A stretch of 64,000 bases of DNA from Aurantiochytrium sp. KH105 (lineage: Eukaryota; Sar; Bigyra; Thraustochytrida; Thraustochytriidae): the NCBI GenBank assembly GCA_003116975.1, contig BGKB01000021.1:558001-622000 (forward strand), read 5' to 3'. Numbering within the stretch: the stretch's first letter is position 1; every line of letters starts with the position of its first letter. The notes beneath the pieces were generated by a model. The model ran no database searches, was not told the DNA's origin, and was given only the letters and a program-made list of their open reading frames with translations. Positions 29,520-58,205 of the stretch are shown piece after piece. The position numbers and the translations under genes were made by a program.

Positions 29520-30776
29520 ATCATATTATGTCTCAACATCATTTGCGACTACGTCTAGATTCAACTACATGCCTCTAACGAAAATTTTGGCCTTCGCGGA
29601 TGCACAAGCCACTCAGGGCCGGCGGTTCCGACCAGTCGAAAGGTTCCAGCGTAGACCGAGTGGGCATGTTCACCCGCCGCAAACCCTTGCGGTCGATCCG
29701 GTGGCGACCCGTTGGACACGTCCGCTCGTCCCGTGTAAAGTTCCTTCGACCACGGCTTGTGTCACACGCGAGAGAAACATATGTCTGTCTGACGAGCCAG
29801 CTGGGACACTTCAGATCATCCCCACGGTTACTAGTACAAGTTCTAAAGCAAGTTTCATGCGGTCGCACGCTTGCCTGCTCGCTGGCTCGCTCGCTCGCTC
29901 GCTTGCTTGCCTGCTTGCTTGCTTGGCCGCCCGAATCTCAGACGCTCTCTGGCCGGCCAAGAGATGGTCTTTGGAACCAAGGCCAGCAAGACCGGTTCAG
30001 TGTCTGCCCCGCTTCGTCCGCTCCAGTGCGCACAGAAAGTACTACGCTTCCACCACCCCGCACATAGCATGGCCGCTGCCAGCGGCCAGCACCGGCCGAC
30101 GCGCGCCGCTCCCTCTCGCGGCCGCCGAGGTGCACCTTCGCGTCGGTCTCAAGCCAGGTCCGGCGGCCAGCGCCGCGTCTGCTGCTCTCGAGATCGTACG
30201 AGGGACGGCGTCCACCTTGCCGCCCCGACGCCGCTATGATAGGCAGAGGCTACTTCACTTTCTCCATACCTCGCCGGTGTCTGCCTGTCCCTCGCTTGGT
30301 CGGCCAACACCACATTTCTCTCTCCCACCCAGCCTCCCTCCCGCGGTGCACGAGCCTCGCGCTGGGCTCGCACTTGCTCGGCGCGACGGACCGCGAGCCG
30401 GCGGCGACCTTGGCGCCGAAAGGAGGAGAGGGCAGCGCACAGCAGAGACCGCCCTCGCGGCGCCCACGTTGCGCCATTATTTTGATGGCTTGTAGTAAGC
30501 AAGCGAAGTGAGCGTCAGCGTCACCGTCCTCGGTACAGCAGCAGCATTGATCTCAGGAGCGAGAGCAGCAGCAAACCCCGAATTGGAGTGCGAAGAACCC
30601 GGCCTTGAGGAGAGGACGTCGAGAAGAGGACGTCGAGAAGAGCCCAAATCGGATCAACGAAGCTGGGCTGGTCGCCCGCCTCGGGAGAAGGACTCGCAAG
30701 AAGCAGGGAGCGCGAAGAACACCGGCCAGTGCTCATAAGGGGAACAAAGAAGCAGGAAAATAAAACGCAGTCGAGG
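29520..30776. other. Intergenic region upstream of ABCA copy 1
   Basis: 1.26 kb. Contains a GCTC/GCTT tetranucleotide-like stretch at 29878-29925 and GC-rich promoter-like sequence up to the ATG. A frame stays open over 29365-30495 but is Arg/Ser/Pro-rich, overlaps the reductase gene and has no recognisable domain; I do not call it a gene. Confidence 0.6.
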
Positions 30777-36517: not shown

Positions 36518-37722
36518 AAGATTGGATAGTTGTAGATCGCAGTATAGAAGTATCTTTTCGTTCCTGAGAGTATGAGCTAGCTAGCTTGCACTGCCCCCCT
36601 CTGTCCTACGCCGTGTGCTTTCGCGCCAAGGTGCCCGGTCCTCGAACCCGCTGCCGCTGCCACACGCACCTGCTGCTGGTGCTGCTGCAGCAGAAGTAAT
36701 TTCCCTCGGCACGCGTCGCACGCCACGCTCCGTGCCGTGCGACCCCAACCACAGCAGCAGCCATGGCAGCTGACATGCGCTCGTGATGATCATGTGCTAT
36801 GTATGTTAAGTTGCTCTTCAAGGGGTTGCGGCGAAGCTGGGTCTCAAGATCGGAGTGCGGTCCAACTCACGCGGCGCGAGGCGGGGCCGGTTCTTTCTTG
36901 CCCTGCGATGCGAGCGGCAAGGCTTGCTTGTGTCGCACGCACCGCGCCATCTTGTTCACTGTCAGGCAGGCATGCAGGCCGCGCCCCGGGCCACGCGGCT
37001 GCAGCTGCGGCTAGCGAGGAGTTCGCAATTTCTGCCCCCGCGCTGTCGCCAGAAGCCGTCGCGCGCCTCGACGGGCTCGCGCCTCGCTTCGCTTTGCTTT
37101 CCTCTCCTCTCGCCCCCGCGCTCGCTGCAGAGCAGCTGCAGCTGCAGCTGCAGCTGGCCGCCGCCGCGCGGATCCGGGGGCGCGTGCAATCAACCGATGC
37201 GCCAGCGCGAGCCGAGTGTCTCTCGGGACTTTGCGCCATTTTCGGGACGGGAAATGCGATGTACCAGCGCGCGTACTACACGGGCGGGGAAAGCAGCCAT
37301 GCGAAGCAGAACAGCCAGAAGCAGGCAAGCAAGTGCAAGCAAGGAGGACCAAGTCCGGACCCGGGACGTCGATAGGCAGATTTGAAACGTGCTTTTGAAT
37401 TCGAATTCTGCAGCCAGCCAGCCAGCCAGCCGGGCGCACTCGCGCAGAGCGGAATCGGCGCGGCCTGCGCGGGCGCGGGCGAGCCGCGGAGGGGGCCACG
37501 GGCGGGCAGACAGCCAAGGCAAGGCAGGGCAGGGAGTGCGGCGAGCGCAGGGAGGGTCTGCGTGTTAGCTAGCTTGTTCGCTAGCTTTTTTGCTAGCTTT
37601 TTTGCTAGCTTGCTTGCTTGCTGGCTTGCTTGCTTGCTGGGCCTTGAAGTTGTTTGCTCAGTTGGACGGGTCCAGATTGGGAGTCTGAAGACGGAAAGAA
37701 AGCAAGGGCAGAGCAATCAACC
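36518..37722. other. Intergenic region between the two ABCA genes
   Basis: 1.2 kb. Includes GCTAGCTAGCTTGC at about 36573-36590, a CTGCAG-rich palindromic patch near 37130-37155, CAGC repeats near 37418 and a GCTT/GCTAGC repeat tract at 37565-37641. Arg/Ala-rich open frames on both strands here look like composition artefacts. The copy 2 promoter must be in the right half. Confidence 0.6.
37565..37641. repeat. GCTAGCTTTTTT / GCTT imperfect tandem repeat
   Basis: Several copies of a GCTAGCTTTTTT-like unit grade into GCTT tetranucleotides, 80-160 bp upstream of the ABCA copy 2 start. A related GCTC/GCTT tract sits upstream of copy 1. Confidence 0.8.
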
Positions 37723-40700
37723 ATGGGGAACTTTGGCGGCCAGCTCGTGTCGCAGCTGCGGCTCGTGCTGCTTCTCAAGGTGAGAAGTCCGCTGCGATCG
37801 CTCGGAGAGATCCTCATTCCCGTGTTGCTCATGTTCGCCCTTGTGGGCATCAAGACAACCGCCGATGAGGAAGACTTCCCCGCCGGCATCTACGCGAACG
37901 AAACGCAACGCGTGCCAGAGATAACCGAGTTCCTCTCCCCCGGATGGTACGTGGCGAACTTGGTGCCGTTTTACGCACACGGCATGTCAAACCTAGCCTT
38001 TGTGTGCGACGCCGAAACCATCAACGATGCGAGCGTCTCGGAGCTTTCGACGGTGATCACGCAAGGACTCGGCAGCGTCTGTGAAACGCCAAAGTTCGTC
38101 GTGATTCCCGGCAACTTTCGCAATGGTGCTGCTGCCATCGCTGCCCAGGAGTTCCGCGAATACTGGCGCGCGCAAAATCCCATTCTTGACGCACAAGGTC
38201 GCTTTGATCAGGTGGAAGACCTCATCAAGGATAACGAACAACTTGAAGAGTACATCGCCTCGGACCAGTACGGAACCGCCGATAAACCGCGCATTGGTCT
38301 CGCCATCGTGATCGAGTCTGGTGCCCCTGACTGGTCGTACTCCATTCGCGTCAACAAAACTGCCACCTATGGAGGATCAGAACCCAAACGCAACGTGCCG
38401 TCCATCCAAAATGGCCGCGATACTCCAACGGATGATCTCGAACGCAGCTCCACCGAGTATACACAACAATACCTCATGTCAGGTTTCCTTACTGTGCAAC
38501 AAGAGGTCGATTCGTACATTCTCTCGCAATCCTCAAGTGGGGCCAATGCCACCCTGCGCGTGAATCTTCTTGCCATGCCAACGTCAGCCTACAAGAGCGA
38601 CACATTTTGGGCTGCAGCGGGGTCCACCTTTGCCATCTTCCTCGTACTCAGTCTGCTCTTTCCCGTGGCCATGGTCATTCTCGAGTTTGTCAGTCTCAAG
38701 GAGACCGGTCAGCGCGAACTCATGTTCATGATGGGTCTCAATCCACTCGCATACACTTTGGCGTGGGTCATCTTCTATTTATTCTTCTACCTCATTGTTG
38801 CGGCAGTGCTCACCGGCGTCTCGATGATCAACGTTTTCCAACTCGCGGCCCCGAGTATCATCTTTGTCTACTTTGTGCTCTTTCTCACGTCGTCTCTCGC
38901 CTACGCCTTTTTCATCGCGGCCATCTTTGAGCGCACAACACTGGCGATCATTGTGGGTCTTCTCGTCTACTTTATCGGCTACTTTCTCTTTATCCCCGTC
39001 AGTGATTCGTCCGCCTCGGTTGGCGTGCAAATCTTCCTTTCCCTTATCCCATCGACTGCGTTTTCTCTCGGCACAATCCCGTTTGCCGAATACGAGGGCG
39101 CTCTCGTGCCGCTGACATGGGACAATGCAGGTTCATCTAATAACGGAGGCTTCACCTTTGCAAACTGTTTGGCAATGCTTCTCATCGACACGCTTCTCTA
39201 CTTTGCGCTCGCGCTTTACTTTGATGCTACGCTTTCTTCGAGCGCTGGCACCGCACGTATACCGTGGTATTGGCCCTTTACGTGCGGCTGCTTGCGTCGT
39301 CGGAGCAAGAACAGCTCCGATTCAAAACAGTTCATCGAGGCAGTTGCGAATCAGACGCAGATCGAAAATGAACTCGCTGCCGACGAGACTGCCAACTTTG
39401 AGCAAGTGTCCAAGACAATGCAGGACCTTCGCGCCGAAGGTCGGTGTGTCATGCTCGGTAACCTGTCCAAGACCTTCAAGTCGGAACGCGGACCCATTCA
39501 CGCGGTCAATCAGGTCAACTTTACAATGTACGAGGGCCAAATCCTTTCCCTACTCGGTCACAATGGCGCCGGCAAGACCACACTCTCCAACATGCTTGTT
39601 GGCAAGCTTGCGCCTTCGCAAGGTGAAGTCTATATCGGAGGACACCCCGTGAGCACCGACATGGCCACGATTCGCGGGTCTCTTGGCGTCTGTCCCCAGC
39701 ACAACATTCTCTTTCCAAACCTCACAGTCAAGGAACACTTTCGCATTTATGCCGGCGTCAAGGGCTTGCCCGCTAACGAGGCCGAGACCAAAATCACAGA
39801 AATGATTGCCGAGGTTGGCCTTACGCCCAAGACCCACACGCTCTCCAAGAGCCTCTCTGGCGGCATGAAGCGCAAGCTCCACCTCGGCATCGCGCTGCTC
39901 GGCGACAGCAAGCTCGTCGTGCTCGATGAACCCACCAGCGGTCAGGACCCGTACAGCCGGACCTTCACGTGGAAGACCATCGAGCGCCATCGTGAGGGCC
40001 GTACCATCATTCTCACCACGCATTACATGGACGAGGCGGACCTTCTTGGCGACCGCATCGCCATCATGTCCGAGGGCAAGCTGAAGTGCATCGGATCGAG
40101 TCTGTTCTTGAAGAAGATCTTTGGCGTCGGGTATCAGATGACGATCGAAAAGGCGGACGATGGCGACGAGGCGAAGCGACTCGAGGTTGTCTCAATCGTG
40201 GCACGGCATGTTCCATCTGCGGAGGTGCTGTCTGATGTGGGCACGGAGATCATGCTGCAGCTTCCGCTGGCCGCGTCACCTAATTTTCAGCGCATGTTGG
40301 CAGAGCTCGAAGCCTCTGCAGAGCGTCTAGGGATTGTGAACGTGGGCATCTCGGTGACAAGTTTGGAGAACGTGTTTCTGCGCGTGGCAGAGGGCGCGGA
40401 GAACGTCTTTGAGCGATCAAAGACGGGTATCAATGTGGCCCGGCTCGCATCCAGCCAGAGCAACGATGCCTTTACGCTTGATAATGCTGATCCAAACATC
40501 AGCATGGCAATTAGCGAGCTTCCTCCGGAGCATCCCCACCCACAAGAGAATGCCCAGCGTGAAGGCGCCACGCCGACGCAAGAGCAAGCAGCGCCATCTG
40601 CGACCGAGCAAGCGCTTACACTTGGTGACACAAACTCTAGCAAAGACGCGACAATCAGAGAGTCGTCTACGGATCATCCTCATGCACAAGCTATGGACCA

Positions 40701-43700
40701 TGCTCAAAAAATTGATCTTGAAGCAGCTCCAGCAGCATTGAAAGCCGAACAAGCTGGTTCTCCGGCTCGCGAGGATGTCGAGGTGCCATTTGCCCAGCCA
40801 AGCGAAGCTACGCAGGAGATCATGGCCACGAGGGGCGCTTCCAGCAAAGTCCATGTGCGGGCCATCTTGCACAAGCGCTTGCGATACGCTAAGCGAGATC
40901 GTTCTGCCTGGTGCTGCCAGTGCTGCACGCCTCTGGCATTTCTTCTTCTTGGTCTTTTGGCCATGAAGGCTGTCTTTAATCCAGACCAGGAGGCCTACAC
41001 CTTTGGCCCAGACACTGACAACTGGAATATCGAGGATTCCCTCCCCAATCCGATTCCTTTCAACCTTGGTGAAGGCGAGTCCATTTCTGCGGAAGCCACC
41101 ACGGCGTGGATGGGGAATCTATCGATGCCAAGACTCGATCGAAGCCAATCATTTGCTGATATCGGTCCGACGACAACGTACTGTCGCCCTGTGGAGCTGA
41201 ATGCACAGCTCGACAGCCTCCTTAACTTTCTCACTGGGGGAGGGTTTGGCTCTTTGCCCGTAGAAAGTCTTTTCCAGGGCAGCGTTCCACCTGCTTGCAC
41301 AGCTGACAACGATTATAATGCCTCGACAACAGCCTTTTCGGAACGTCTGCTCGCCACCAAGGACAATTCTCCCAGTTCCAGATATGCGGGCCTCCTCTTT
41401 GATGTGGTGCCAGACAACTTCTTTGGCTCGGGAGCTGGAGGTGTGGTCGCAGGCCTCGAGGCCGAGTACACCGTTGCATACAATTACACTGGCGTAAATG
41501 CGGCTCCACTGATGATGAATCGTGTCAATTCCGCGTTGCTGCAGCGAATCGACGACTCTGTGACGCTCACAACGTCAAATCTTCCTTTGCCTAGAACCAA
41601 GGCAGAAACGGAGATCAGGCAAGGCTTTTCTGCGTTTTCGGCAACACTCTGCTTGGCCATTGCCTTTTCCTTTGTGCCTTCATACTATGCAGTCTTCATC
41701 GTCCGCGAGAAAGAGCAACGCAGTTGGCACCAGCAGCTTCTTAACGGCATCAAACCGCTCGCGTACTGGACGGCGAATTGGATCTTTGACTTTTGCACCT
41801 ACGTCATGGCCATGCTTGTAGCCTGGGCGCTCATTTTTGCCTTTGACGTGTCTGCGCTCACAAGTGAGTTTCCAGCCGTTCTTCTCATCTTTTTCTTTTA
41901 CGGCACTTCCATCACAAGTTTCACATACTGCTGCACCTTTTTGTTCAGCAACTTTAAGTTTTCACAGTTCGGCATGATTCTCATCAATCTCGTAGGCGGC
42001 ATGGTTCTCGTCATTGTGGCCTTCATCATGTCCTTTATTGAAAGCACGTACGAGGTAAATGAGAGCCTCACGTACATTTACCGGCTGCTTCCGAGCTTTT
42101 GCTTCAGCTACGGGCTCATCAATGTGGCTAATGTGGAGATCATCAACTTTCTGCTAAACAGCGAAGAAAGAGGCGGGGACCCGAGCAACCCCGTATCCTA
42201 CAGCGTCTTTAGCACGAGGGTCGCAGGGCTCGACATTGTGTATCTTATCGTCGAAACCTTTGCTTACACGGCACTTCTCGTTGTCCTACAGTCCCAATTC
42301 CGTAACGGCATGTGCTGTGCCGGTGGACGATCCGGAATCTCTTGCTTTTCTCGATGCAAACGTCACAAATCTGTGGCCGGCAAAGGCTCCGCATCGGGAA
42401 TCATTGATCCCGCTTATGGCGACGAGATCGAAGATGACGACGTCCAAGCTGAACGCGCCCGAATCGAGCCTGTCGACGTGCGAAACCACGACGGCAAAAC
42501 CTCAACAACCAGCGACGATGTTGTCATTCTCCAGCATGCTCGCAAGGTCTACCCCGGCACGGCGCTTACAAACGACAAGGTCGCTGTCAAGGACCTCAGC
42601 TTTGGCATTCGCAAGTTTGAGTGCTTTGGCCTTCTCGGTATCAACGGCGCTGGCAAATCGTCCACCATGCAAATGATCTCGGGCGAGCACCCGCCCACCG
42701 ACGGCCACATCTACGTCAACACCCACGACATTGTCACCGATACTGTGCGAGCCCAGCAGTCTATCGGCTACTGCCCGCAGTTCGATGCTCTCTTTGACCG
42801 TCTCACCGGCCGCGAGCATCTCGAGTTCTACGGCCGCGTCAAGGGCATTCCTGAGCAGGCCCTCAAGCCTCTGATCGACAGCACGCTGCGCGAGATGAGC
42901 CTGACCCTGCACGCCGATAAGCTGGCCATGAGCTACTCGGGCGGCAACAAGCGCAAACTGAGCGTTGCGATTGCCAGTCTTGCGACGCCGGCAGTTGTCA
43001 TGCTGGACGAGCCAAGTGCGGGCGTGGACCCGGCGGCTCGGCGTTTTCTGCTCGAGGTGATCAACAAGCTGGCCAAGCGCACTGCGGTCTTGCTGACGAC
43101 GCACTCGATGGAGGAGGCTGAGGCAGTCTCTTCGCGCATCGCCATCATGGTGGACGGCCGACTGCGCTGTCTGGGCACGGCGCATCGTCTCAAGACCAAG
43201 TACGGGCAAGGTTTCCAGCTCGAGGTGAATCTTCGCGTCCCGTCCGAGGCCGAGGTGTCCGAGGTCGTGGGCGAGGAGTTTGGCACTACGAACGACAACA
43301 TGTTGGCGCAGGATGGCGTGGTGGACGTCATGGACAAGGCCGGGGCGCACGACTTGTACGAGCAAGGCTTTCGTGCCGATGGCAGCGGGTCGACCTTGCT
43401 TCAGCAGCTTACAGTCGGGCGTGGATCGGTACGTGCGAGCAATCTGGGCGAGTGGCTTCTCGTGGAGCGCTCGTTCACGCGTCTTGCTGCGCTCTTGGAA
43501 AGCAAGTTCCCAGGGACCAAGCTGCTCGAGCGCGTGGGTCTCCGCCTCCGGTTCAACCTGCCCTCGCAGGATCACTTGAAGCTCTCGGACATGTTTGGCA
43601 TCATCGAGGGCGCCCGCGAGGAGGCCGGCATTGACGGCTACAGTCTGAGCGTGACTTCGCTGGAGCACATTTTCAACACCTTTGCCGCTCGCCAAGCCCT

Positions 43701-43725
43701 CGTCGATGGGCCGCCGAAAGAGTGA
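37723..43725 (+). CDS. Full-length ABCA-family ABC transporter, copy 2
   Basis: 2000 residues, intact single exon, ATG at 37723 in good context (ACC ATGG). Same architecture as copy 1: TM1, exoplasmic loop, TM2-6, NBD1 (Walker A GHNGAGKTT at about 612, signature LSGGMKRKL, Walker B VVLDEPTSGQDP), linker, second membrane domain (KEQRSWHQQLLNGIKPLAYW before its helices), NBD2 (Walker A GINGAGKSS at about 1639, signature YSGGNKRKL, Walker B VVMLDEPSAGVDP) and a regulatory C-terminal region. It differs from copy 1 by a linker about 85 residues longer after NBD1, rich in Ala, Glu, Pro, His and Thr. A lipid flippase/floppase role is inferred from the family; the substrate is unknown. Confidence 0.92.
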   Translation: MGNFGGQLVSQLRLVLLLKVRSPLRSLGEILIPVLLMFALVGIKTTADEEDFPAGIYANETQRVPEITEFLSPGWYVANLVPFYAHGMSNLAFVCDAETINDASVSELSTVITQGLGSVCETPKFVVIPGNFRNGAAAIAAQEFREYWRAQNPILDAQGRFDQVEDLIKDNEQLEEYIASDQYGTADKPRIGLAIVIESGAPDWSYSIRVNKTATYGGSEPKRNVPSIQNGRDTPTDDLERSSTEYTQQYLMSGFLTVQQEVDSYILSQSSSGANATLRVNLLAMPTSAYKSDTFWAAAGSTFAIFLVLSLLFPVAMVILEFVSLKETGQRELMFMMGLNPLAYTLAWVIFYLFFYLIVAAVLTGVSMINVFQLAAPSIIFVYFVLFLTSSLAYAFFIAAIFERTTLAIIVGLLVYFIGYFLFIPVSDSSASVGVQIFLSLIPSTAFSLGTIPFAEYEGALVPLTWDNAGSSNNGGFTFANCLAMLLIDTLLYFALALYFDATLSSSAGTARIPWYWPFTCGCLRRRSKNSSDSKQFIEAVANQTQIENELAADETANFEQVSKTMQDLRAEGRCVMLGNLSKTFKSERGPIHAVNQVNFTMYEGQILSLLGHNGAGKTTLSNMLVGKLAPSQGEVYIGGHPVSTDMATIRGSLGVCPQHNILFPNLTVKEHFRIYAGVKGLPANEAETKITEMIAEVGLTPKTHTLSKSLSGGMKRKLHLGIALLGDSKLVVLDEPTSGQDPYSRTFTWKTIERHREGRTIILTTHYMDEADLLGDRIAIMSEGKLKCIGSSLFLKKIFGVGYQMTIEKADDGDEAKRLEVVSIVARHVPSAEVLSDVGTEIMLQLPLAASPNFQRMLAELEASAERLGIVNVGISVTSLENVFLRVAEGAENVFERSKTGINVARLASSQSNDAFTLDNADPNISMAISELPPEHPHPQENAQREGATPTQEQAAPSATEQALTLGDTNSSKDATIRESSTDHPHAQAMDHAQKIDLEAAPAALKAEQAGSPAREDVEVPFAQPSEATQEIMATRGASSKVHVRAILHKRLRYAKRDRSAWCCQCCTPLAFLLLGLLAMKAVFNPDQEAYTFGPDTDNWNIEDSLPNPIPFNLGEGESISAEATTAWMGNLSMPRLDRSQSFADIGPTTTYCRPVELNAQLDSLLNFLTGGGFGSLPVESLFQGSVPPACTADNDYNASTTAFSERLLATKDNSPSSRYAGLLFDVVPDNFFGSGAGGVVAGLEAEYTVAYNYTGVNAAPLMMNRVNSALLQRIDDSVTLTTSNLPLPRTKAETEIRQGFSAFSATLCLAIAFSFVPSYYAVFIVREKEQRSWHQQLLNGIKPLAYWTANWIFDFCTYVMAMLVAWALIFAFDVSALTSEFPAVLLIFFFYGTSITSFTYCCTFLFSNFKFSQFGMILINLVGGMVLVIVAFIMSFIESTYEVNESLTYIYRLLPSFCFSYGLINVANVEIINFLLNSEERGGDPSNPVSYSVFSTRVAGLDIVYLIVETFAYTALLVVLQSQFRNGMCCAGGRSGISCFSRCKRHKSVAGKGSASGIIDPAYGDEIEDDDVQAERARIEPVDVRNHDGKTSTTSDDVVILQHARKVYPGTALTNDKVAVKDLSFGIRKFECFGLLGINGAGKSSTMQMISGEHPPTDGHIYVNTHDIVTDTVRAQQSIGYCPQFDALFDRLTGREHLEFYGRVKGIPEQALKPLIDSTLREMSLTLHADKLAMSYSGGNKRKLSVAIASLATPAVVMLDEPSAGVDPAARRFLLEVINKLAKRTAVLLTTHSMEEAEAVSSRIAIMVDGRLRCLGTAHRLKTKYGQGFQLEVNLRVPSEAEVSEVVGEEFGTTNDNMLAQDGVVDVMDKAGAHDLYEQGFRADGSGSTLLQQLTVGRGSVRASNLGEWLLVERSFTRLAALLESKFPGTKLLERVGLRLRFNLPSQDHLKLSDMFGIIEGAREEAGIDGYSLSVTSLEHIFNTFAARQALVDGPPKE

Positions 43726-47704: not shown

Positions 47705-50700
47705 ATGACAGTCGAGACCTCGCAGCGAAACGTCTGGGTCCTCGTAGAAAATTCGTACCTAGAAGGCCGCATTGCTGTTGATGAGCCCAGCGAAGACTTT
47801 GTCGATGTTTCCGTGGAAACCCTCGGCGTCACCATTCCCATCAGTCGAGAAAATGTCTACGAGACAAACCCTGACGTCTCAAGCTTTTACGACCTCGATG
47901 ATCTCACCAGTCTCAGACACCTCCACGAGCCGGCCATTCTGCACGTCTTGGAAGGGCGATCTTACGAGAATCAGCCGTATACATATCTGAGTGGAATCCT
48001 CGTCAGTGTCAACCCGCTCGAGCGAACGTCAGAAGCTCTTCAAGCGGGATTTAAGGCGGCCCCAGGCACCTACGTCCCCCCCCATCCGTTCGCATTGGCC
48101 GAGACTGCCTTTCAGCAAATGTGTTTTGCGACCAAAAACCAGGATCGAAGCTGCACAAGCGCGCAATCTATCGTCATTGCTGGTGAAAGCGGCGCTGGCA
48201 AGACTGAAGTTGCCAAACGCGTGATCCAGCATCTCATCAAGCGCTCTGGCGCCTCGCCCGCTCAAATCAGTAGCGGCGATGGCTCGCCCTCACTCGAACA
48301 GCAGCTCCTGGGCCTCAACCCGATTTTGGAGTCTTTCGGCAATGCGGCCACTCTACGCAACCACAACTCGTCGCGTTTTGGCAAATTCACAAAGTTACAC
48401 TTTGACTGCGACGGCTCGTCAGAGTCCGGGGCGACTCTGGCTCATGCCTCCATTTGCTCGTATCTCCTGGAAAGGTCACGCATTGTCTTCCACAGCCCTG
48501 GAGAACGCTCCTTTCGTGTATTTTACGAGCTCATCAACGGGGCGGATACAGAGCTGCGCGATAGAGCCAGACTTGGTCCAGTCGATCAGAGCAAAGAGGG
48601 ATACATTTTCAACTTTGTCCGCGACAAAGATGCGGCCGAACGCGATTGCGCGAAACAGCTCGAAAGAGACAAAGCTGCTTTTGCGGGCCTCGTCGAAGCG
48701 CTTCGCGCAGTTGGGCTTGGTAAACGTCTCGACGATATCTTTCTCATGGTCGCCTGCGTCCTACATTTAGGCAACCTCGAGATCGAGGAGGAAGAGAGCG
48801 AGCAAGGGAGCGTGGCTTGTATAAAAAACGAGCAACTCGTGACCGAAGGCGTGACCTCGGACCTGCTCGGCTTGCCGCAAGGATCACTTCAAGAGCTCCT
48901 TTGTGAACGGACCGTCAATTTGCCTGGAGGCGAAAGTGTGAGAGTCCGACGCAAGCTTCTCGAGGCTCTCGAGGCACGAAATGCTCTTGCCAAGAGTCTA
49001 TACAGTGCTCTCTTCGACTGGCTTATTGAACGCATCAACCACAAGCTTGCCCCCGACGCCATGGCAGCCGAGCGCTTTAAAGACTCTTATGTTGGCGTGC
49101 TCGATATTTTTGGTTTCGAAACCTTTGCACGTAATGACTTTGAGCAACTTCTCATCAACTTTGCCAACGAGGCATTGCAGGAAACCTTTCGCGAAAAGGT
49201 CCTCGTGGCCGAGGCATTGTTGTATCGGCAAGAGGGTCTTGTTCTCGACGACGCAACGTCCTCATCGTCCGCTGGGGACGACATTGCCTCTTGCCTTGCG
49301 CTCTTGGAAGGGACAAAGTCTCAACCGGGCATTTTACAAAAGCTTGCCGCCGAGAGCGAGTGTCCCAACCCAAAGGATGATCGATTTGTCAGCACGCTAC
49401 ACTCTTCGTTTGCCAGGCATCCCCAATTTCTCGCGCCTCACCCCAAGGACAAGCGGACCACCTTTATTGTCTCCCATTACGCGTCCGACGTCACATACAC
49501 CGTGGGCAAATTTACGCAAAAGAATCTCGATCGACTGCCCAAGGATGCTCAGGTGGTGCTTGGCCAGTCAACGCGCGAGTTTGTAGCTGACATGCTCGCT
49601 GCGGCAGCGAGCTCTGCAGGTGGCTCAGGCGCCGCTGCGTCCAAGCGCCAGCAGCGGACCATTGCAACACAGTTTTCCAAGCAAATCAGCGCACTGGTGC
49701 GCGACCTCAACGCTACACAATGCTCCTTTGTGCGATGCATTAAGCCAAACCTGACCATGCGTCGCGATCATAGCAATGGCCGTTGGTTCGACAGTAGCTA
49801 CGTGCTTGATCAGCTGCGCTGCCTCGGTATTGCGCAGACTGCGAAGGCACTTCGCGGTGGCGGCTTTCCGACGCGCATTGACTACAAGGACGTCATGGAA
49901 AACTTCAAGGAGCAAATCCCAAAAGAACACTTTGAGGCATGCACCAAGCTTCTCGACGTCGGTGCTGGTGGCTGTGCGGACGACACGGCACGTCGCCGTC
50001 GGCGCAACGCGCGCTTCATCCGCGCTCTTTTTTGGGCATTTGATATCCCACAGGATGCTTACAGGTGCGGGCTCACAAAGGTCTTCTTTAAGCCTGGAGC
50101 GTTGCAAAAGGTCGACGCCATGCTCGCCGCCTCACGCGAGCAAGCAGATGCAAACGTTGGCGATGACGCGGAGATTGCAGAGAGCGCGCGTCTTGCACGC
50201 TTTCGCGAACATTGCGCGCGCTCTGCATGGCGCTCTTGCTGCACCAAGGTTATCGCGGCAAATCGATTCTTGGACGTACTTCAGGCCGCACGCAAGGCTG
50301 CCGAGGCGCGTCGCCGTGCGTCAGAACGTCGAGCAGCTGTGCGTATTCAGGCGACGTGGCGAATGGCCCTTGCCATGGACAATTTTCGCATCATTTTCCA
50401 AGCCGTGCTTTCAGCCCAGAGCTTTTGGCGAATGTGCGAGACACGGAAAGCGTACCTGGAGGAGCAGCAACGTCGCAAAGAGGCAGCTCAGGCCCTTGCA
50501 GAGGCAGAAGCCGAGGCTGCTGCAGCCCAAGCTGCCGCTGAAGCAGCGGCGGCAAAACGGCAGCAAGAAGCTGCTGCTGCTGCTGCGATTGCGGCTGCTG
50601 AGGCTGCTGAGGCTGCTGCCAAGGCCCAGCGGCAGCTAGATATTCGAAAGCGCAGCAACAACAACGACGAGGTAACCAACGACGAGAGGGAAGAGGATGC

Positions 50701-53317
50701 GGATGAAGATGAGGACGTTCAAGATGAAGAAGAAGACGAGGAAGATGAGCACATTGAAGAAGATGATGAAGACGAAGAAGAAGCAGACCGTCTTCGCGAG
50801 CAGGCGATGCGCTGCCAGCAGCAAATGCAGCTCATGATGATCAAGGAAGCCATCTTGGCGGAAAATGAGCGCCGTGAAGCGGCTGCGGATACTGATGGCA
50901 GCATGAGCACTATTCCAGAAGAAAATGAGGACGACGTGTCATCGTGGGCCTCCCGTTCGCGTGCTAGCAGTTTTACTTTGCCAGCAGACTCGAGCAAAAG
51001 CAGCACATTTGTGGGCGTCCCCTCTTCATCGAGAGAACAGCAGCAAACGCAGCAATCGTCGCAACAGCATCTCAAGGGTAATATCAGTAGCGCTCCGAGC
51101 CCCCGTCATCAGTCGCGCGCAAAGACCAAGCTTAAGAACACAGGACCGCCCCCGCCCTTGCCCCCGAAGCCTGAACATAAGCGTGGCACTTCCCTCCATA
51201 CCTTGGAAGGAAATACAGACGTACTCGTTGGAACCGATGGACTACAGTCCCAAGGCAAAGATCGTCCCAGACCAAGCTCGCAATCCTTCAAGAGCGCGCC
51301 AGTAGAGGCAGCATCCTTACGCAGCTTCAAAAAGGCCACAACGCCTGCACGCGCCCCCCAACCCCCGCCACCACCCCCGAAAAGCTCCAAGACACTCCAG
51401 CGTCAATCAGAACGATCGCGATCCTCTTCGGCTAGTGCTTCAGGAGACGAGGGAAGTCATGGTGTCTCAAATGCGAAGCGTGGCACCGGCGAACGAACCA
51501 AAAAGAAAGACGGCGATGCGAACGCGAAGAGCGGCTCCAAGTCGGGTACAACAGCGAGCGGAAGGCAAATGACGGGTCGGAAACAACGTCTCTACTCGCG
51601 ACGGAATCCGTCTTCACAGAAACGCGTCACCGCTGAGCACGACCAAAAGAAACAGCGCACCATCTTTTTACGTCTGCGGCAAGAAGAGAGGTCTTATGTT
51701 GACGCGCTGAGCATTATCAACGGCAACTATTACAAACCCGTGCTCGAGACCCTCATCATCGACGAGCCTGGCTCCACCAAAGGCCTGCTGCGTCAGGATG
51801 CAGAGAGCATCTTCTCCAATCTACCACAGCTTCTCAAGATGCACTTCCAGATGCTTGCAAGCATTGAAGAGGAGCTTGCAAAGCAAAAGCAAGATCCCAT
51901 GTACGCGATGACGTCAACTTTTCTCGGAAAACTTCGAGAATCTCTGCCATTTCTTCGCACCGTCTACTTGGTATATGTGAAGCAGAACTCTACGAGCCTT
52001 AGTATCCTTTCCCGCGCTCGTGCGGAGGTTCCCAAGTTTGCTCGCTTTCTTCGTCTCACTGCGGAGAACAAAACGCTGCCCAGCTACGGCACAGATCTGC
52101 GTGATCTACTCAAGATTCCTATCAACCAGATGGCTCGCTATCACGAGTTTTTGAACATGCTGCTTTCCTGCACGCATCCTGATAGCAGGGAGCACAAGGA
52201 TTTGCGCGAGGTCTGCAAGCGAATCGAAGGAATAACTCGGGAGTTGGACAACGAGCGACGGCTCGCAAGATTGAGAATGCGAGCGTATGAGATCGCCAAC
52301 GAGCTCGAAGGTGTCGGCAAGCCAGCCTGGAAGCGCAAGGGGAAGACTCAGCTGCTCAACAATGTCAACAACCCGCGCAGCCATCACTCGCTCATGGATC
52401 TCTCTGCGGCAGCTGCAGCGAGCTTGCAAAGTAGCCACCAGCGCGAGTCATTTCCGACAGGCTCAAGCCAAGGACAAGCGATATCTGTGCAGCAAGATCA
52501 AGTCAAACAAAAGTCTGACGACCAGCACGCACATCAAGGCTCGCAAGCAAGCAATGTTGACGGAACGAATACGACCTCTGACGCGGAATCAAGCGGCACT
52601 GTGGCACCACAGAGTCATATTCTTGTACCAGGGCGCCAATTTCTTTGTGAATGGACGGCTCCGCTTAGTGTCAGTGAGCGCAAGCTGGACGAGGCGCAAC
52701 CTGCAGACGTCAAGCCCAAAAATCGCGCATTCTTTCTCTTCTCGGATGTCTTGGTGATTGCCAAAAAGGTAGCAACGCGCAAGTACGATTTGCGCATGTG
52801 GATTGACTTGAGCAAAATATGGGTCGACGCCTCACACGTGACTGCAGCGGGGAAGAAGACAGCACGGGTGCGCGAGCAATTTGAAGAGGCCACAACGGAT
52901 CGTCACGAGCGCGTGTACCCGTTGCAGATTGTGTACATTTCCATGGCGAATGGAATCGCGAATACAGGCCACACCAGCCTTGCCATTCGCCTGCTTCAAA
53001 ACGCAAGCGGTGGAACAAGGAAGCGCAAAAATGGGCGTCAGGAGAACCTTTCTCCCCGCGTCGAGAACCTCATGATTTGGTTTCACAGTCCCGTGCAGCG
53101 CCGAGAGGCCTTTCACAATCTCACGGCTGCTTCCAAGGCCCTGAAGAAACGGCGGGAACAGCTCGCGAAAATGCAGACCGAGCTTGTTGGCAAAGGAGCT
53201 GCCGGTGCGGCCGTGGTCAAGGCTGCCAAAGAGCGTCTCGCGCATCTTTCCGAGTCGCCTCTTCAAGGAGAATCGATGGCAGACCTCGCTACGGCTGCGA
53301 GCTCTGCAGTGGCTTAA
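47705..53317 (+). CDS. Unconventional myosin with RhoGEF (DH-PH) tail
   Basis: 1870 residues, one exon, ATG at 47705. Motor about residues 60-800: P-loop GESGAGKTE (160), switch I NHNSSRFGKF (about 219), switch II DIFGFETF (467) with FEQLLINFANEALQETF after it, actin-site RCIKPN, and converter end GLTKVFFKPG. A neck with one or two IQ motifs follows (AAVRIQATWRMAL near 877), then an Ala/Glu/Gln helix, a long Asp/Glu run (about 1000-1030) and two polyproline stretches (near 1146 and 1216). The tail has a Dbl-homology domain (about 1319-1530: RQEERSYVDALSIING, IPINQMARYHEFLNMLL) and a PH domain (about 1637-1810: FFLFSDVLVIAKK). It should couple actin motility to Rho GTPase activation. Dictyostelium MyoM has the same motor-RhoGEF plan; myosin IX carries RhoGAP instead. 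Class assignment needs a tree. Confidence 0.9.
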   Translation: MTVETSQRNVWVLVENSYLEGRIAVDEPSEDFVDVSVETLGVTIPISRENVYETNPDVSSFYDLDDLTSLRHLHEPAILHVLEGRSYENQPYTYLSGILVSVNPLERTSEALQAGFKAAPGTYVPPHPFALAETAFQQMCFATKNQDRSCTSAQSIVIAGESGAGKTEVAKRVIQHLIKRSGASPAQISSGDGSPSLEQQLLGLNPILESFGNAATLRNHNSSRFGKFTKLHFDCDGSSESGATLAHASICSYLLERSRIVFHSPGERSFRVFYELINGADTELRDRARLGPVDQSKEGYIFNFVRDKDAAERDCAKQLERDKAAFAGLVEALRAVGLGKRLDDIFLMVACVLHLGNLEIEEEESEQGSVACIKNEQLVTEGVTSDLLGLPQGSLQELLCERTVNLPGGESVRVRRKLLEALEARNALAKSLYSALFDWLIERINHKLAPDAMAAERFKDSYVGVLDIFGFETFARNDFEQLLINFANEALQETFREKVLVAEALLYRQEGLVLDDATSSSSAGDDIASCLALLEGTKSQPGILQKLAAESECPNPKDDRFVSTLHSSFARHPQFLAPHPKDKRTTFIVSHYASDVTYTVGKFTQKNLDRLPKDAQVVLGQSTREFVADMLAAAASSAGGSGAAASKRQQRTIATQFSKQISALVRDLNATQCSFVRCIKPNLTMRRDHSNGRWFDSSYVLDQLRCLGIAQTAKALRGGGFPTRIDYKDVMENFKEQIPKEHFEACTKLLDVGAGGCADDTARRRRRNARFIRALFWAFDIPQDAYRCGLTKVFFKPGALQKVDAMLAASREQADANVGDDAEIAESARLARFREHCARSAWRSCCTKVIAANRFLDVLQAARKAAEARRRASERRAAVRIQATWRMALAMDNFRIIFQAVLSAQSFWRMCETRKAYLEEQQRRKEAAQALAEAEAEAAAAQAAAEAAAAKRQQEAAAAAAIAAAEAAEAAAKAQRQLDIRKRSNNNDEVTNDEREEDADEDEDVQDEEEDEEDEHIEEDDEDEEEADRLREQAMRCQQQMQLMMIKEAILAENERREAAADTDGSMSTIPEENEDDVSSWASRSRASSFTLPADSSKSSTFVGVPSSSREQQQTQQSSQQHLKGNISSAPSPRHQSRAKTKLKNTGPPPPLPPKPEHKRGTSLHTLEGNTDVLVGTDGLQSQGKDRPRPSSQSFKSAPVEAASLRSFKKATTPARAPQPPPPPPKSSKTLQRQSERSRSSSASASGDEGSHGVSNAKRGTGERTKKKDGDANAKSGSKSGTTASGRQMTGRKQRLYSRRNPSSQKRVTAEHDQKKQRTIFLRLRQEERSYVDALSIINGNYYKPVLETLIIDEPGSTKGLLRQDAESIFSNLPQLLKMHFQMLASIEEELAKQKQDPMYAMTSTFLGKLRESLPFLRTVYLVYVKQNSTSLSILSRARAEVPKFARFLRLTAENKTLPSYGTDLRDLLKIPINQMARYHEFLNMLLSCTHPDSREHKDLREVCKRIEGITRELDNERRLARLRMRAYEIANELEGVGKPAWKRKGKTQLLNNVNNPRSHHSLMDLSAAAAASLQSSHQRESFPTGSSQGQAISVQQDQVKQKSDDQHAHQGSQASNVDGTNTTSDAESSGTVAPQSHILVPGRQFLCEWTAPLSVSERKLDEAQPADVKPKNRAFFLFSDVLVIAKKVATRKYDLRMWIDLSKIWVDASHVTAAGKKTARVREQFEEATTDRHERVYPLQIVYISMANGIANTGHTSLAIRLLQNASGGTRKRKNGRQENLSPRVENLMIWFHSPVQRREAFHNLTAASKALKKRREQLAKMQTELVGKGAAGAAVVKAAKERLAHLSESPLQGESMADLATAASSAVA

Positions 53318-53602: not shown

Positions 53603-54724
53603 CTACATCTCTCGAATTCGCTTCCGCTTTCGCTTCGCCCAATCTCGATACTCTTCATCGGTGTCACTGTTACTGCTGCACAGGTCGACAACAACTCGGT
53701 CATCTTCCTTATCAAGCCTTCTCCGCTTTCCGCATGCTTCATAAAGCACCTCGTCCTCCTCTTCCGCATTGTCCATCTCTGCTGAGACGATGTTGCTCTC
53801 ATTTTGGTCATCAGATCTGCTCGATGCACTTGCACTCGCGACTGCTATATCTGCCGCTACCGACGTATTCTCAGCATCCTTGTCATCGTCGTTATGTTCT
53901 GCTGCTTCGGGAGGCTTCGTTGCATCCTCTTGCAAGCCAAGAGCCAATCTAATCGACCATACAAGAGCATCCACCTCGTCTGGCTGGCCCCCATTCAGCA
54001 TTCGAACATACAAGGGATTGCCACTTCACGATATCCCGAAACGCCCCGCCCACGTGCTTCTATTCTCCATCTCTTTTTCCAAGACACATGGAATCATACT
54101 CGCAGGATTTTCACGCAGAAGAGCATAACAGAACTCGGCTCGACAATTGTCAAGCTCTGTTTTTCCTTCATTGACCTTCCTCATGTACTCTTGGGTCACG
54201 AAGACCACGCCCGCTTTGCAACGGTCAATGCCATCTGCCATCGAATTGAGAACCTCTGTGCCAATGTCTTTCTCATCGAGCCAACAGCGGATTCCCCGAC
54301 TTTCGAATGCATCCGCGATAGCCCTCACCTTTCCATGGACCTCCTTGTTCTCACCCCAGGCATGCGACAGGAAGACGTCGAAAGGCTTGGCATCACTAGT
54401 GACGGATGAATACGAGCCTCGTGCGCCCTCGCCTCCTTCCACAAATGGTGAGAACAGTGCCAAAGAAAGACGTTTCTCCCTTTGCAATGAGGGAACCTCG
54501 TTGTAAGTAGCATCTGCAAATGCATCGACAGAGGCACATGCATCTTCGCTATCTGAGCCGTCAGAGCTGAGAAAGAGTTTCGGGCCAAGAGATCCCCTCA
54601 TGAAAGACGCGTCGATGCTCTCCAGACAATGCTGGAGAATCTTGACGTGACTCTTCAGACGTTTCTTCGCGGGTTTCTTGAAGTGAAGCGTCACCCGCCT
54701 GCTACTTGTTTTTATGTCCGCCAT
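53603..54724 (-). CDS. TIR-domain protein with in-frame TGA
   Basis: The ATG at 54724 gives 232 residues to a TGA at 54028-54026. The same frame then stays open for about 140 more codons to a TAG at 53603. The TIR domain starts about residue 113: KPFDVFLSHAWGENKEVHG, ESRGIRCWLDEKDIG, AGVVFVTQEYM, NCRAEFCYALL and MIPCVLEKEM, covering TIR boxes 1-3. The domain's usual end, W-x-G-x-x-G then LYV, is split by the TGA: STWAGRFGIS lies before it, and GNPLYVRML and VDALVWSIRLALG after it. The stop therefore lies inside the domain. The tail after it is acidic and ends in a basic KRKRKR stretch. TIR domains signal or act as NADases; the catalytic Glu cannot be placed confidently. It starts 147 bp after the aminopeptidase stop, on the same strand. 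Confidence 0.72.
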
Positions 54725-54870
54725 ACACAATGAAGAGTGCCTCTCTTTTGCGCCAGCCAGACGCAGCGAATTTTTGTCGTGCAGAAACGAGCGGAAGAAT
54801 GGAGCCAATGCGAAAAGCAAGAAGAAGCGAAAAAGATTGGAAAAAAAAAAGGGATCATCTTTACCTTCCA

Positions 54871-57800
54871 TTACAGGTTGCTGGAGGGCGCCTCGAGGGA
54901 CTTGTGGACGATCTCTGCAACGTCCTTGGAAAGATCCTTCTTGGCGGCGATGCGCTCGAGCTCGGCATGCATCTTTGTCGACCAAGGTGCGGTGAAGGAC
55001 CGCCAGGAAGAAAATTGCTTTGCCAAGCGACTTGCGACCTGCGGGTTGATGTCATCGATTTGAATGATTCGATCGGCCACAAAGGTGTAGCCACTGCCAT
55101 CGGCGGCGTGGAAACCAGTAAAGTTTCCGCCAGCAAATGCGTTGAAGACCGCATAGCAGCAGTTGGGGTTCTTGATATCGAAAACTTCAGGCATATCCAT
55201 AATGCTTTTCATGGCGTCCACCGTTGAGGGTAGAGCAGACTGCGCCTGCACCCGAAACCACTTTTGTACAACAAGCTTGTCACTCTTGTACATGTCAAAA
55301 AAGTCCTGCAAGAGACGCGTGCGCTCCGAGCAGTCAATGTCGCGCACGGCAAGAACTGCGCCATAGCGATCCGTCATGTTCTCCGGAGCCTCAAACTGAT
55401 GTACAGCCTTGCGCAGCGCATCTTCGCGCAGCGCCGAGTTCTTCACGAGGTAGCGCAGGCATGAATTCTTCAGCTGACGGCGGGCAACAGCGTCGCCAGG
55501 TGACTCGTTCTTGGCGGGCTCGCGAGTAGCCTCGTAGGTCTCTGCAAAGAGCGGGCCGAGACCTTCTGCAATAAGGCGCCGCAGGGCTGCACAAGCGCTC
55601 GAGATGTGGTCCACGTTTGCAGTTCCCTTTTCCATGGCGTCAGCCATGGCGCTCTCATTGGGCATGGCGAGTGCAAGTGACACGAGGGCGCGATCAAGCG
55701 AGGCGTCGCGAAGCGTATGCTCCAAGCTCGAGAGAAGCAGAGGCGCGTCTTCATGATCGAGGGCATCGGCCTCGACACCCGAAGCAGCCTTTTCAACGAG
55801 CTCGGTAAGAATTTGCTTGGCAAGCTCCTGACCGCTTTCGTAGCGCACAAAAGAGTCCGTGTCGTGGGCAGCGAGGAAGACCAGGTCCCGTCGCGTGAGT
55901 TCGCTGCACGAGAGCTTGACTGGGGCGGAAAAGCCTCGGAGCAACGAGGGCACGGGCTTTTCGGAAACGCCGTGCAAAGTGAACTCTTGCTTGGCCTTGG
56001 TCACGCGAAGCACAGCCGAGTCAACTTCTTCCGCGTCAGCAGCGCCCACCTTGAAGCGCAGAGGACCATTGGAGGATGTACCGACGAGCCCGACGGCAAG
56101 GGGAATGTCAAAGGGCTCCTTCTCCGCCTGACCGGGCGTGGCCGGGCATGACTGCTCAACGGTGAGAGTAAGTTCAGCCGCCTCGGCGTTGTAAGAGGTC
56201 TTGACGCTAACCTCCGGGGTCCCTGCCTGCGTGTACCAGGTGTCGCGGAAAAGAGACAGGTCAACCTCGTTGGCATCCTCCATGGCTTTGACAAAGTCGT
56301 CACAGGTGACGGCCTGGCCGTCGTGGCGCTCAAAGTAGAGGTTGAGACCCTTGCGGAAGCCTTCGGGCGTGACAATAGTCTGGATCATGCGAATAATTTC
56401 GGCGCCCTTTTCATACACAGTGAGCGAGTAAAAGTTGTCGATGGCCTCGTAGGCGTCAGGGCGAATGGGATGCGCCATGGGCCCGGCGTCCTCCTTGAAC
56501 TGATGGTCTCGAAGCAACTGGACATCGGCGATGCGCTTGCTCGCGCGAGAGTTGAGATCACTGCTGAATTCCTGGTCACGGAACACCGTGAGACCCTCCT
56601 TGAGCGTGAGCTGAAACCAGTCGCGGCAGGTGACGCGATTGCCGGACCAGTTGTGAAAGTACTCGTGACCAATGATGCCCTCGATGTTGAGGAAATCAGT
56701 GTCGGTGGCCGTGTCATTGTCAGCCAAAACATACTTGGAGTTGAAAATGTTGAGGCTCTTGTTCTCCATGGCGCCCATGGTAAAATCGCTCACTGCTACA
56801 ATGTTGAATTGACTGAGGTCGTACTCGCGATCGAAACGCTCCTCGTCCCACTTGAAGGCACGCTTGAGGCAGTCCATGGCGTGCGGCGTCTTGCTCAGGT
56901 TGCCCTTCTCGACAAAGATACCGAGACGCACCTCCTTACCGGAGCACGTGGTAAAGCTGTCGGTCAAGACGTCAAAGTCTCCACCAACGAGCGCAAAGAG
57001 ATAGCATGGCTTGGGCCACGGGTCTTCCCAGAGCACGAAATGACGACCGTCGGGCAGATCACCACGTTCCACATCGTTGCCGTTCGACAAAAGATGCGGG
57101 ACGGACTTGCTCGCAATGACCTTGGTTCGGTAGATGGACATATTGTCCGGGCGATCTACAAAGTACATCATGTTGCGGAATCCCTCGGCTTCCATTTGGG
57201 TGCAAAAGTTTCCGCTCGACTTGTACAGTCCGTTCAGAGAGGTATTCTTTTCGGGGACAACGGTCACGTCAATTTGCACAGAAATCTTTTCACCGACCTT
57301 GACCGGAAGCGCCGCGCTCGGAATAGTCATCGTCTCGTCGTCGACCTGGTATGCGTCCGCATCGAGGGACTCGCCGTTGATAAGAACGCTCTGGATTTCC
57401 ATTTGCGCAGGCTTGCGCTCGCCATTAAGCACAAGGTCTGCGCCTTCACGTTGGCGCTCGTACTCGACCTTGCAAGAGATCTTGCTCGTGTCATCGAGCT
57501 CCACCGTGAGGTCCACATCTTTGGCCAAAAAGGCCGGCGGCTCATACTCGAGTCGGAGTACCGGCTGCGCGGCTTTCTGGGTTGCCTCCTCCGACATGCT
57601 CGTGAAGGTTCTTCGCGACTCGGCTTGCTTGCTGGGACGCTGTGCGCGAAAGGGCGAGCTTTGCGTCGCTCGACGTTGCCAACCTGTGCGCAGCGCACCA
57701 AGTGACGCGGCGTTTGCGCTCTGCAGCAAGGTTGTCAAGGATCCGCTTGCTCGCGTTGTCGTTGCGAAGAGGCTTGTCGCGGTTGCCGGCTTCTTCGAGA

Positions 57801-57897
57801 AAGGGTTTTGCTTCTCAGCGGATACTACAATGCTGAGGCCCGAGCCTCCCCTGAGGCGCGGCGCGCGCTGCACCGAATTTGCGAGCGCCCGGCGCAT
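54871..57897 (-). CDS. PepN-type M1 aminopeptidase (aminopeptidase N)
   Basis: Zinc metallo-aminopeptidase that removes N-terminal residues from peptides. GAMEN exopeptidase motif (MGAMENKSLNIFN, about residue 372 from this start), zinc site HEYFHNW (about 409) with the third ligand Glu in LKEGLTVFRDQEFS, matching the HExxH-18-E pattern. The segment RVTCRDWFQLTLKEGLTV is characteristic of the bacterial PepN branch, also found in plants and protists, rather than animal APN. The alpha-helical C-terminal domain continues to the end (FTAPWSTKMHAELERIAAKK). Start options: 57897 (1008 residues, beginning MRRALANSVQRAPRLRGG, Arg/Ser/Ala-rich like a mitochondrial presequence), 57597 (908 residues, MSEEATQKAAQ, cytosolic) and 58197. 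I chose 57897; the catalytic part is unaffected. Confidence 0.92.
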   Translation of the reverse strand: MRRALANSVQRAPRLRGGSGLSIVVSAEKQNPFSKKPATATSLFATTTRASGSLTTLLQSANAASLGALRTGWQRRATQSSPFRAQRPSKQAESRRTFTSMSEEATQKAAQPVLRLEYEPPAFLAKDVDLTVELDDTSKISCKVEYERQREGADLVLNGERKPAQMEIQSVLINGESLDADAYQVDDETMTIPSAALPVKVGEKISVQIDVTVVPEKNTSLNGLYKSSGNFCTQMEAEGFRNMMYFVDRPDNMSIYRTKVIASKSVPHLLSNGNDVERGDLPDGRHFVLWEDPWPKPCYLFALVGGDFDVLTDSFTTCSGKEVRLGIFVEKGNLSKTPHAMDCLKRAFKWDEERFDREYDLSQFNIVAVSDFTMGAMENKSLNIFNSKYVLADNDTATDTDFLNIEGIIGHEYFHNWSGNRVTCRDWFQLTLKEGLTVFRDQEFSSDLNSRASKRIADVQLLRDHQFKEDAGPMAHPIRPDAYEAIDNFYSLTVYEKGAEIIRMIQTIVTPEGFRKGLNLYFERHDGQAVTCDDFVKAMEDANEVDLSLFRDTWYTQAGTPEVSVKTSYNAEAAELTLTVEQSCPATPGQAEKEPFDIPLAVGLVGTSSNGPLRFKVGAADAEEVDSAVLRVTKAKQEFTLHGVSEKPVPSLLRGFSAPVKLSCSELTRRDLVFLAAHDTDSFVRYESGQELAKQILTELVEKAASGVEADALDHEDAPLLLSSLEHTLRDASLDRALVSLALAMPNESAMADAMEKGTANVDHISSACAALRRLIAEGLGPLFAETYEATREPAKNESPGDAVARRQLKNSCLRYLVKNSALREDALRKAVHQFEAPENMTDRYGAVLAVRDIDCSERTRLLQDFFDMYKSDKLVVQKWFRVQAQSALPSTVDAMKSIMDMPEVFDIKNPNCCYAVFNAFAGGNFTGFHAADGSGYTFVADRIIQIDDINPQVASRLAKQFSSWRSFTAPWSTKMHAELERIAAKKDLSKDVAEIVHKSLEAPSSNL

Positions 57898-58205
57898 CGG
57901 CAGTGCGCGAGGACCAGCCACGTGTCTTGCGGCACGCTCGCGGCACGCTCGCAGTACGCACGAGCGTTTGCCTGCGCTCTGCGCTCCTCCGATAGTTTTG
58001 GAGCTTTGCGCTGCGCTGCAGCAAACATGCCTGCCTCCCGTCGACCCATCCGGAACCGCAGCCACGGGAGAGACGGGAGAGCAGACGTGCACAAATGGGA
58101 CGGAGATCGGTCGTCTTGAATGGATGGAGAGCGCAAGACGCGACAGCATAGGCCTAGTTGATCCATGCATCGATCCATGCATCCATCCATTGGCCATTCA
58201 TCCTC

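Follow-up and report, generated by a model that had tools for sequence, protein, structure and literature searches.

A myosin motor and a RhoGEF (DH-PH) tail encoded in one reading frame of a thraustochytrid genome, apparently a case separate from Dictyostelium MyoM

The stretch of DNA analysed here (64,000 nucleotides, hereafter the window) carries on its forward strand a gene whose translation is a single open frame of 1,870 codons plus stop. Its start at 47705 is the first in-frame ATG, the upstream start given by the ORF caller (47651) being a TTG. The features of this gene, in window coordinates and with the evidence for each, are the following:

47705-53317, + strand: complete myosin-RhoGEF (DH-PH) fusion gene, 1870 aa plus stop (one frame; both copies intact, no gap)
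47705-47878, + strand: N-terminal extension, residues 1-58, resembling the SH3-like subdomain of other myosins (reading of the sequence; a phmmer match to Dictyostelium myosin II starts at residue 16)
47897-50092, + strand: myosin motor to the end of the converter, residues 65-796 (Pfam Myosin_head; constrained between copies over residues 65-810)
48182-48205, + strand: P-loop GESGAGKT, residues 160-167 (located in the translation; invariant at 7 of its 8 positions in alignment A1)
48359-48385, + strand: switch I NHNSSRFGK, residues 219-227 (located in the translation; A1 columns mostly invariant)
49100-49126, + strand: switch II LDIFGFETF, residues 466-474 (located in the translation; A1 columns mostly invariant)
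50093-50344, + strand: converter-to-IQ stretch, residues 797-880, longer than usual and at the site of class VI insert-2 (spacing of IQ patterns, alignments)
50327-50389, + strand: IQ motif, residues 875-895 (Pfam IQ, below cut-off)
50681-50800, + strand: acidic run in the linker, residues 993-1032 (sequence; linker dN/dS 0.21, copies without indels)
51146-51172, + strand: polyproline 1, PPPPLPPKP, residues 1148-1156 (sequence)
51356-51382, + strand: polyproline 2, PQPPPPPPK, residues 1218-1226 (sequence)
51680-52246, + strand: Dbl-homology (RhoGEF) domain, residues 1326-1514 (Pfam RhoGEF; no replacement between copies over residues 1316-1545)
52340-52618, + strand: DH-PH linker, low-complexity, 93 residues (alignment A2, mostly missing in the two closest GEFs of the same genome)
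52619-53182, + strand: PH region, with low-complexity residues inside it and the Pfam match at 52709-52858 (Pfam, A2, PH-only search; constrained between copies over residues 1646-1870)

Searched against Pfam, the fusion protein matches Myosin_head with 513 bits (E 1.5e-153, profile positions 2-679 of 679), which corresponds to a full motor, and RhoGEF with 79.8 bits (cut-off 27.6, E 3.8e-22, profile positions 7-179 of 180). Together with the P-loop, switch I and switch II, these matches bear out the claim of the initial annotation that one uninterrupted frame joins a complete motor to a RhoGEF, and the Dbl-homology domain that it had placed at residues 1319-1530 is significant. A PH match lies C-terminal to the DH (RHG20_PH, residues 1669-1718, 32.1 bits against a cut-off of 27.7); SOS1_NGEF_PH reached 19.7 bits, under its cut-off of 27.7. 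The announced DH-PH tail is therefore present in both its parts, but the PH match is weak and partial (profile positions 13-61 of 93) and the low-complexity residues separate it from the DH. Likewise, the neck does contain an IQ motif, but at 18.1 bits this best match stays below the Pfam cut-off of 20.3 and no IQ motif of the protein exceeds it. The acidic and polyproline linkers were found as described. Class II SH3 ligands have the core PxxPxK and, read as motifs, both polyproline runs (ending KP or K) would fit it. PX, WW, Tub and ankyrin gave no Pfam match in the fusion protein. Single-sequence structure predictions were unusable (mean pLDDT 49.1 for the DH and 37.9 for motor and neck). 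With motor, neck and DH-PH tail within one chain, the protein has a MyoM-type architecture, as had been recognised at the outset.

The genome assembly comprises 76 Mb in 367 contigs, and most profile matches come in pairs, which evidently represent two haplotypes. A second copy of the fusion (L033) lies on contig C5, with the same 1,870 codons and no gap, and rules out a frame joined by error. The two copies differ at 117 silent and 36 replacement codons (overall dN/dS 0.09). This ratio is 0.057 for the motor, 0.054 for the PH end and 0 for the DH, where 230 codons hold 23 silent and no replacement changes. The neck and linkers, at about 0.2, are among the less constrained coding parts, and the first 64 codons reach 0.30 (3 silent, 3 replacement); upstream, the 5' stretch of 49 bases holds 1 mismatch. 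Since dN/dS is low in both halves and the shared frame is intact in the two copies, the motor and the tail look kept as one protein, and both domains with the linker that joins them look maintained as coding sequence in one frame.

Profile searches of the genome gave at least 56 RhoGEF and at least 83 myosin matches (alleles and split matches counted; for the myosins, scoring covered 65 of 97 candidates, with the window's own copy standing outside that table). Among the matches listed, judged by position and by length of frame, only the fusion (C21:609680) and its second copy (C5:76360) pair a RhoGEF with a myosin frame. The myosin set is large, with at least 36 motors once second copies are removed, their motor matches lying in single frames. 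At all 49 myosin loci of this genome that were examined (both haplotypes counted, second copy of the fusion included) the motor matches fall in one open frame, so that the lack of introns in the fusion is nothing special. The description as a single-exon gene thus holds as far as the frame goes but denotes the ordinary state here, and the same loci rule out reading it as evidence that the gene was retroposed or transferred. No viral relative of the motor was found by tblastn among viral_contigs (600 pattern matches scanned).

The relatives of the tail were sought among the GEFs of the same genome. In a DH tree containing one copy per DH pair and omitting the RhoGEF locus C17:441196 (L077), whose match is split over two frames, the fusion DH is the sister of L040 (97/90), then of L041 (98/96), and a reduced tree with L059, L078, L079 and L049b left out gives the same joins at 95/85 and 97/95. 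By phmmer the fusion DH scores 83.1 and 63.9 bits to its two closest relatives and 37.2 bits to the next DH of this genome. The end branch of the fusion DH is long (2.19). The best match of L040 is L041 (136.7 bits), and its match to the fusion DH (83.6) is almost level with that to L047 (80.3). Constraining the fusion DH to join L046 gives a rejected tree (p-AU 0.0047), which is not so for 8zlf or the Vav DH (p-AU 0.095 each); these two are also the closest solved structures, 8zlf being a putative Rho/RAC GEF (29.5 bits), which we take to be an Entamoeba protein, and Vav scoring 28.2 bits. Longer stretches of the L040 and L041 loci (L080 and L081, with stop-to-stop open frames of 744 and 989 aa) contain no motor. 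A PH-only search found the same two GEFs (39.6 and 38.1 bits for L041/L081, 29.1 and 27.7 bits for L040/L080), the next match being at most 8.7 bits, although some PH domains may be missing from this search because the other loci were fetched a few hundred bases past the DH. In alignment A2 homology is continuous from DH into PH, with the extra low-complexity insert between them in the fusion. A spurious DH call is ruled out by the RhoGEF score, the allele comparison and the match to these GEFs. As a separate observation, L049 (C107:14507-15684) has two near-identical DH matches, arranged head to tail and each read in its own frame, which may be a tandem duplication or an assembly effect.

Three positions of A2, in CR1, CR3 and the last helix, are presumably equivalent to the Tiam1-Rac1 GTPase-contact positions E1047, K1195 and N1232; they read E, R and D in the fusion, and E, K and N/D in the two relatives. 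CR3 also has 'PINQ' in the fusion where both relatives have 'PVQR', and exchange activity may be altered on account of this replacement. On the motor side, the TEDS rule concerns the residue 16 positions before the DALAK-type motif, which is E in the fusion. The kept DH contact positions and this E would suggest that both domains work. It could be argued instead that the tail is a scaffold which binds a Rho GTPase or the membrane and has lost nucleotide exchange; the altered CR3, the long DH branch and the weak, partial PH match all speak for it, but the absence of replacements among the DH codons, against 23 silent changes, and the retention of the GTPase-contact residues make such a loss unlikely in our view.

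The motor, too, was compared with its counterparts in this genome. In a tree of 36 of its motors (14 second-haplotype motors, the fusion's second copy among them, were dropped beforehand), the fusion motor forms a five-member clade with L034, L036, L037 and L038 (100/100); its stem is long, and the branching at its base lacks resolution. The long frames of the four sisters (L072, L073, L074 and L075; 1,495, 1,635, 1,507 and 1,579 aa, counted from the first methionine) contain Myosin_head and no Pfam match to RhoGEF or PH at E up to 1. Read by eye, the tails of L072 and L073 might contain PH-like stretches that Pfam misses. These two tails also contain cysteine pairs resembling a zinc ribbon, the Pfam matches being far under cut-off, and the tails of the five clade myosins differ widely.

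Dictyostelium discoideum MyoM combines, like the fusion, a myosin motor with a RhoGEF domain in a single protein; MyoM also has a neck, a linker, a PH domain and Rac1 exchange activity. Compared through its description, the likeness is one of architecture. Among the three origins that had been envisaged for the fusion (independent assembly, deep inheritance, transfer), independent assembly from the organism's own parts, separately from MyoM, seems the best reading, because the four other members of the motor's clade, all from this genome, gave no DH match and because the best matches of the DH and of the PH are one and the same pair of GEFs, likewise encoded here. The absence of DH in the sister myosins can also reflect loss, given the lack of resolution at the base of the clade. 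The other two origins imply either an ancient motor-DH-PH protein common to the fusion and MyoM or a transfer between amoebozoans and this lineage, followed in each case by loss elsewhere. Such a history can invoke that MyoM likewise has a putative RhoGEF domain attached to its motor (according to a title cited in PMC1634994), that the DH join with 8zlf is not rejected in the constrained trees, and that transfers of class-4 and class-2 myosins between distant eukaryotes are argued for in the available text of PMC5583752. It has to be set against the placement of the motor, the DH and the PH among sequences of this genome. Moreover, the fusion motor is short near the nucleotide pocket, with gaps opposite class VI insert-1 when aligned to 4pfo, and we take this insert-1 site to be that of the extended loop of MyoM. 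According to the accessible part of PMC1634994, MyoM is an orphan myosin with an extended loop at one of the class VI insertion sites, so that the two proteins would differ there. We consider shared ancestry with MyoM, by either route, unlikely, and favour independent assembly.

A different question is raised by class VI myosins. When reference motors are added, the five-member clade groups with the sole class VI row, at 98/95 with four PDB references and at 98/94 with seven (the long-branch rows L061 and L039 left out of the latter tree); in both trees the class I reference, serving as control, lies within the class-I-like group of this genome. Constraining class VI with class X (p-AU 0.0225) or with class II (0.0248) is rejected, and constraining class VI (0.322) or the five-member clade (0.253) with L071, another motor of this genome, is not. 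The best solved-structure match of the fusion motor is class VI (346.8 bits against 338.3 for myosin II), as it is for the sister L073 (386.3 against 357.9). Since class VI is represented in the trees by one row and the stramenopile classes by no reference, this grouping is to be read as a lead and not as a classification. To its sister position and its structure match the fusion adds a long converter-IQ stretch as a further likeness to class VI; it differs in being short at insert-1, in an insert-2 letter likeness that is not significant, and in its tail, which is a DH-PH one without Pfam match to the class VI cargo-binding tail. The fusion was not assigned to class VI, since two defining features, insert-1 and the cargo-binding tail, were not found in it. 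Class VI is described, in the available texts of PMC3942036 and PMC5583752, as distributed among Holozoa and their near kin with one disputed haptophyte case. Should the link of the clade to class VI hold under wider sampling, the restriction of class VI-like motors to that group would come into question again.

The post-converter stretch was compared across the genome's motors, the converter motif having been located in 25 of the other motors and not found in 6. The first simple IQ pattern occurs 21-22 residues past this motif in 11 of the 25, and later (L017 at 40, L019 at 44, L027 at 66, L003 at 69) or not at all in the other 14; in L003 and L027, inspection by eye shows an IQ-like stretch near 20-24 that the pattern overlooked. 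Within the five-member clade the pattern appears at 84 (fusion), 65 and 71, that is 44-63 residues later than usual in three of the five, and is absent in two. These extra residues fall at the place of myosin VI insert-2, the reverse gear. For the sister L073 the alignment to 3l9i reaches residue 795 of that structure. Comparison of letters with the class VI insert-2 was not significant for the fusion (shuffle fraction 0.29) and modest for its sisters (0.01, 0.004, 0.045 and 0.054), and within the clade 6 of 10 pairs of post-converter stretches agree at a shuffle fraction below 0.02 while 4 do not. It is conceivable, though we give it little credence, that the fusion is a class VI-allied motor outside the accepted range, pointed-end-directed by way of a reverse-gear-like stretch behind the converter, carrying its own Rac activator and evolved separately from MyoM. 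Such a motor-GEF would travel away from the advancing edge of the membrane, opposite to the direction of the usual model, and would activate Rac along actin bundles or at their base, the root of the ectoplasmic net being one such place.

Lastly, that motor and GEF are read separately, from two adjacent transcription units or through a gene-model artefact, would agree with the weaker constraint on linkers and neck but is very improbable, as the 355 linker codons show no stop or indel between copies and replacements in them are still held down, the open reading frame has no gap run in 5,613 bases while the 3' flank, with 11% mismatches, has 6 over 275 aligned bases, and an open frame of 1,916 residues is present on both C21 and C5.

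We consider it probable, on balance, that this gene encodes a working single-chain actin motor and Rho-family GEF, and that a myosin of the organism's own lineage gained its DH-PH cassette separately from MyoM. A member of the five-member clade would have received this cassette from the GEF family still present in the genome. Possible substrates are encoded in two copies each: a first Rac relative has 82% identity over 159 residues to Rac1A, and a second 59% over 194 residues. Both copies of the first have a stop inside the matched stretch, and their C-terminal part gives a match of its own further downstream, so that an intron is suggested. What we infer beyond the parts, their constraint and these Rac-like genes concerns activity, targeting, feedback and site. 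The fusion is likely to be a motor-targeted Rac/Rho activator in actin-rich protrusions. The motor would bind actin and move along it or hold on, concentrating the GEF at actin-rich membrane, with the PH domain helping to bind the membrane; the DH would there load a Rac-like GTPase with GTP, and the new actin could recruit more motor in a local positive feedback. In a thraustochytrid-like cell the site might be the actin-filled ectoplasmic net or other protrusions. The labyrinthulomycete ectoplasmic net has an actin cytoskeleton, according to the available texts of PMC12221091 and PMC6326421, and two studies whose titles concern myosin in Labyrinthula movement are cited in the latter. A Rho-activating motor of this kind would couple the place where actin is to the place where actin is made; a second separate case would suggest that such a circuit evolved at least twice and, in a labyrinthulomycete, would offer a genetic handle on the building of the actin-based ectoplasmic net.

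The nearest parallel with experimental tests is Myo9b, a RhoGAP myosin which, according to the accessible part of PMC7949024, accumulates in lamellipodia by means of its motor and acts there. Both would be actin motors placing a Rho regulator locally, but with opposite sign, the GAP of Myo9b switching Rho off and the fusion carrying a GEF. In stramenopiles and haptophytes, myosin classes XXI, XXX and XXXI have varied tails, class XXX ending in a C-terminal PH in Ectocarpus and in a PX in Phytophthora (available text of PMC3942036). Compared by description, the fusion resembles these classes in the diversity of their tails and in the PH of the Ectocarpus protein, and differs in its lack of PX, WW, Tub and ankyrin matches. 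The word RhoGEF is absent from the main text of PMC3942036 and PMC5583752; it occurs once in the accessible text of PMC2375034, among the abbreviations of a legend on orphan myosins of other taxa, and a RhoGEF myosin is not discussed in that of PMC8305917. In this literature, covered through part of the open-access texts, MyoM is the only RhoGEF myosin named, and an earlier record of the fusion or of a kindred gene is possible. The fusion appears to be a second, apparently separate motor-RhoGEF case beside the known MyoM architecture.

Several neighbouring genes were also observed in the window. The SH3 protein that had been mentioned about 20 kb from the fusion does exist (25290-27584, - strand), with SH3_1 at 41.6 bits and IQ at 81.7 bits for the whole protein; as a partner of the fusion it was rejected, nothing beyond distance supporting the pairing and distance being uninformative in a eukaryotic chromosome. 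Two adjacent ABC transporter genes with ABC2_membrane_3 lie at 30729-35858 and 37654-43722 (+ strand), the second with an ABCA1-like C-terminal domain. Downstream of the fusion, a TIR_2 frame (54029-54985, - strand, 55.2 bits) overlaps the end of an M1 aminopeptidase gene (54874-58197). The window also contains the flagellar genes CFAP65 and IFT121. In the genome assembly, near the end of a contig, there is a PfaA-like PUFA-synthase match of 930.4 bits, below the cut-off of 1010.1; the same model also drew some match from 11 of the 14 genomes used as controls (one archaeon, the others bacteria), none of them over the cut-off. This match and the two flagellar genes would fit a zoosporic labyrinthulomycete, and the stramenopile affiliation considered at the outset is plausible. 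Finally, a frame of 5,708 aa on contig C27 and one of 5,831 aa on C56 match a single part of the PfaA model several times and may encode a large polyketide or fatty-acid synthase.
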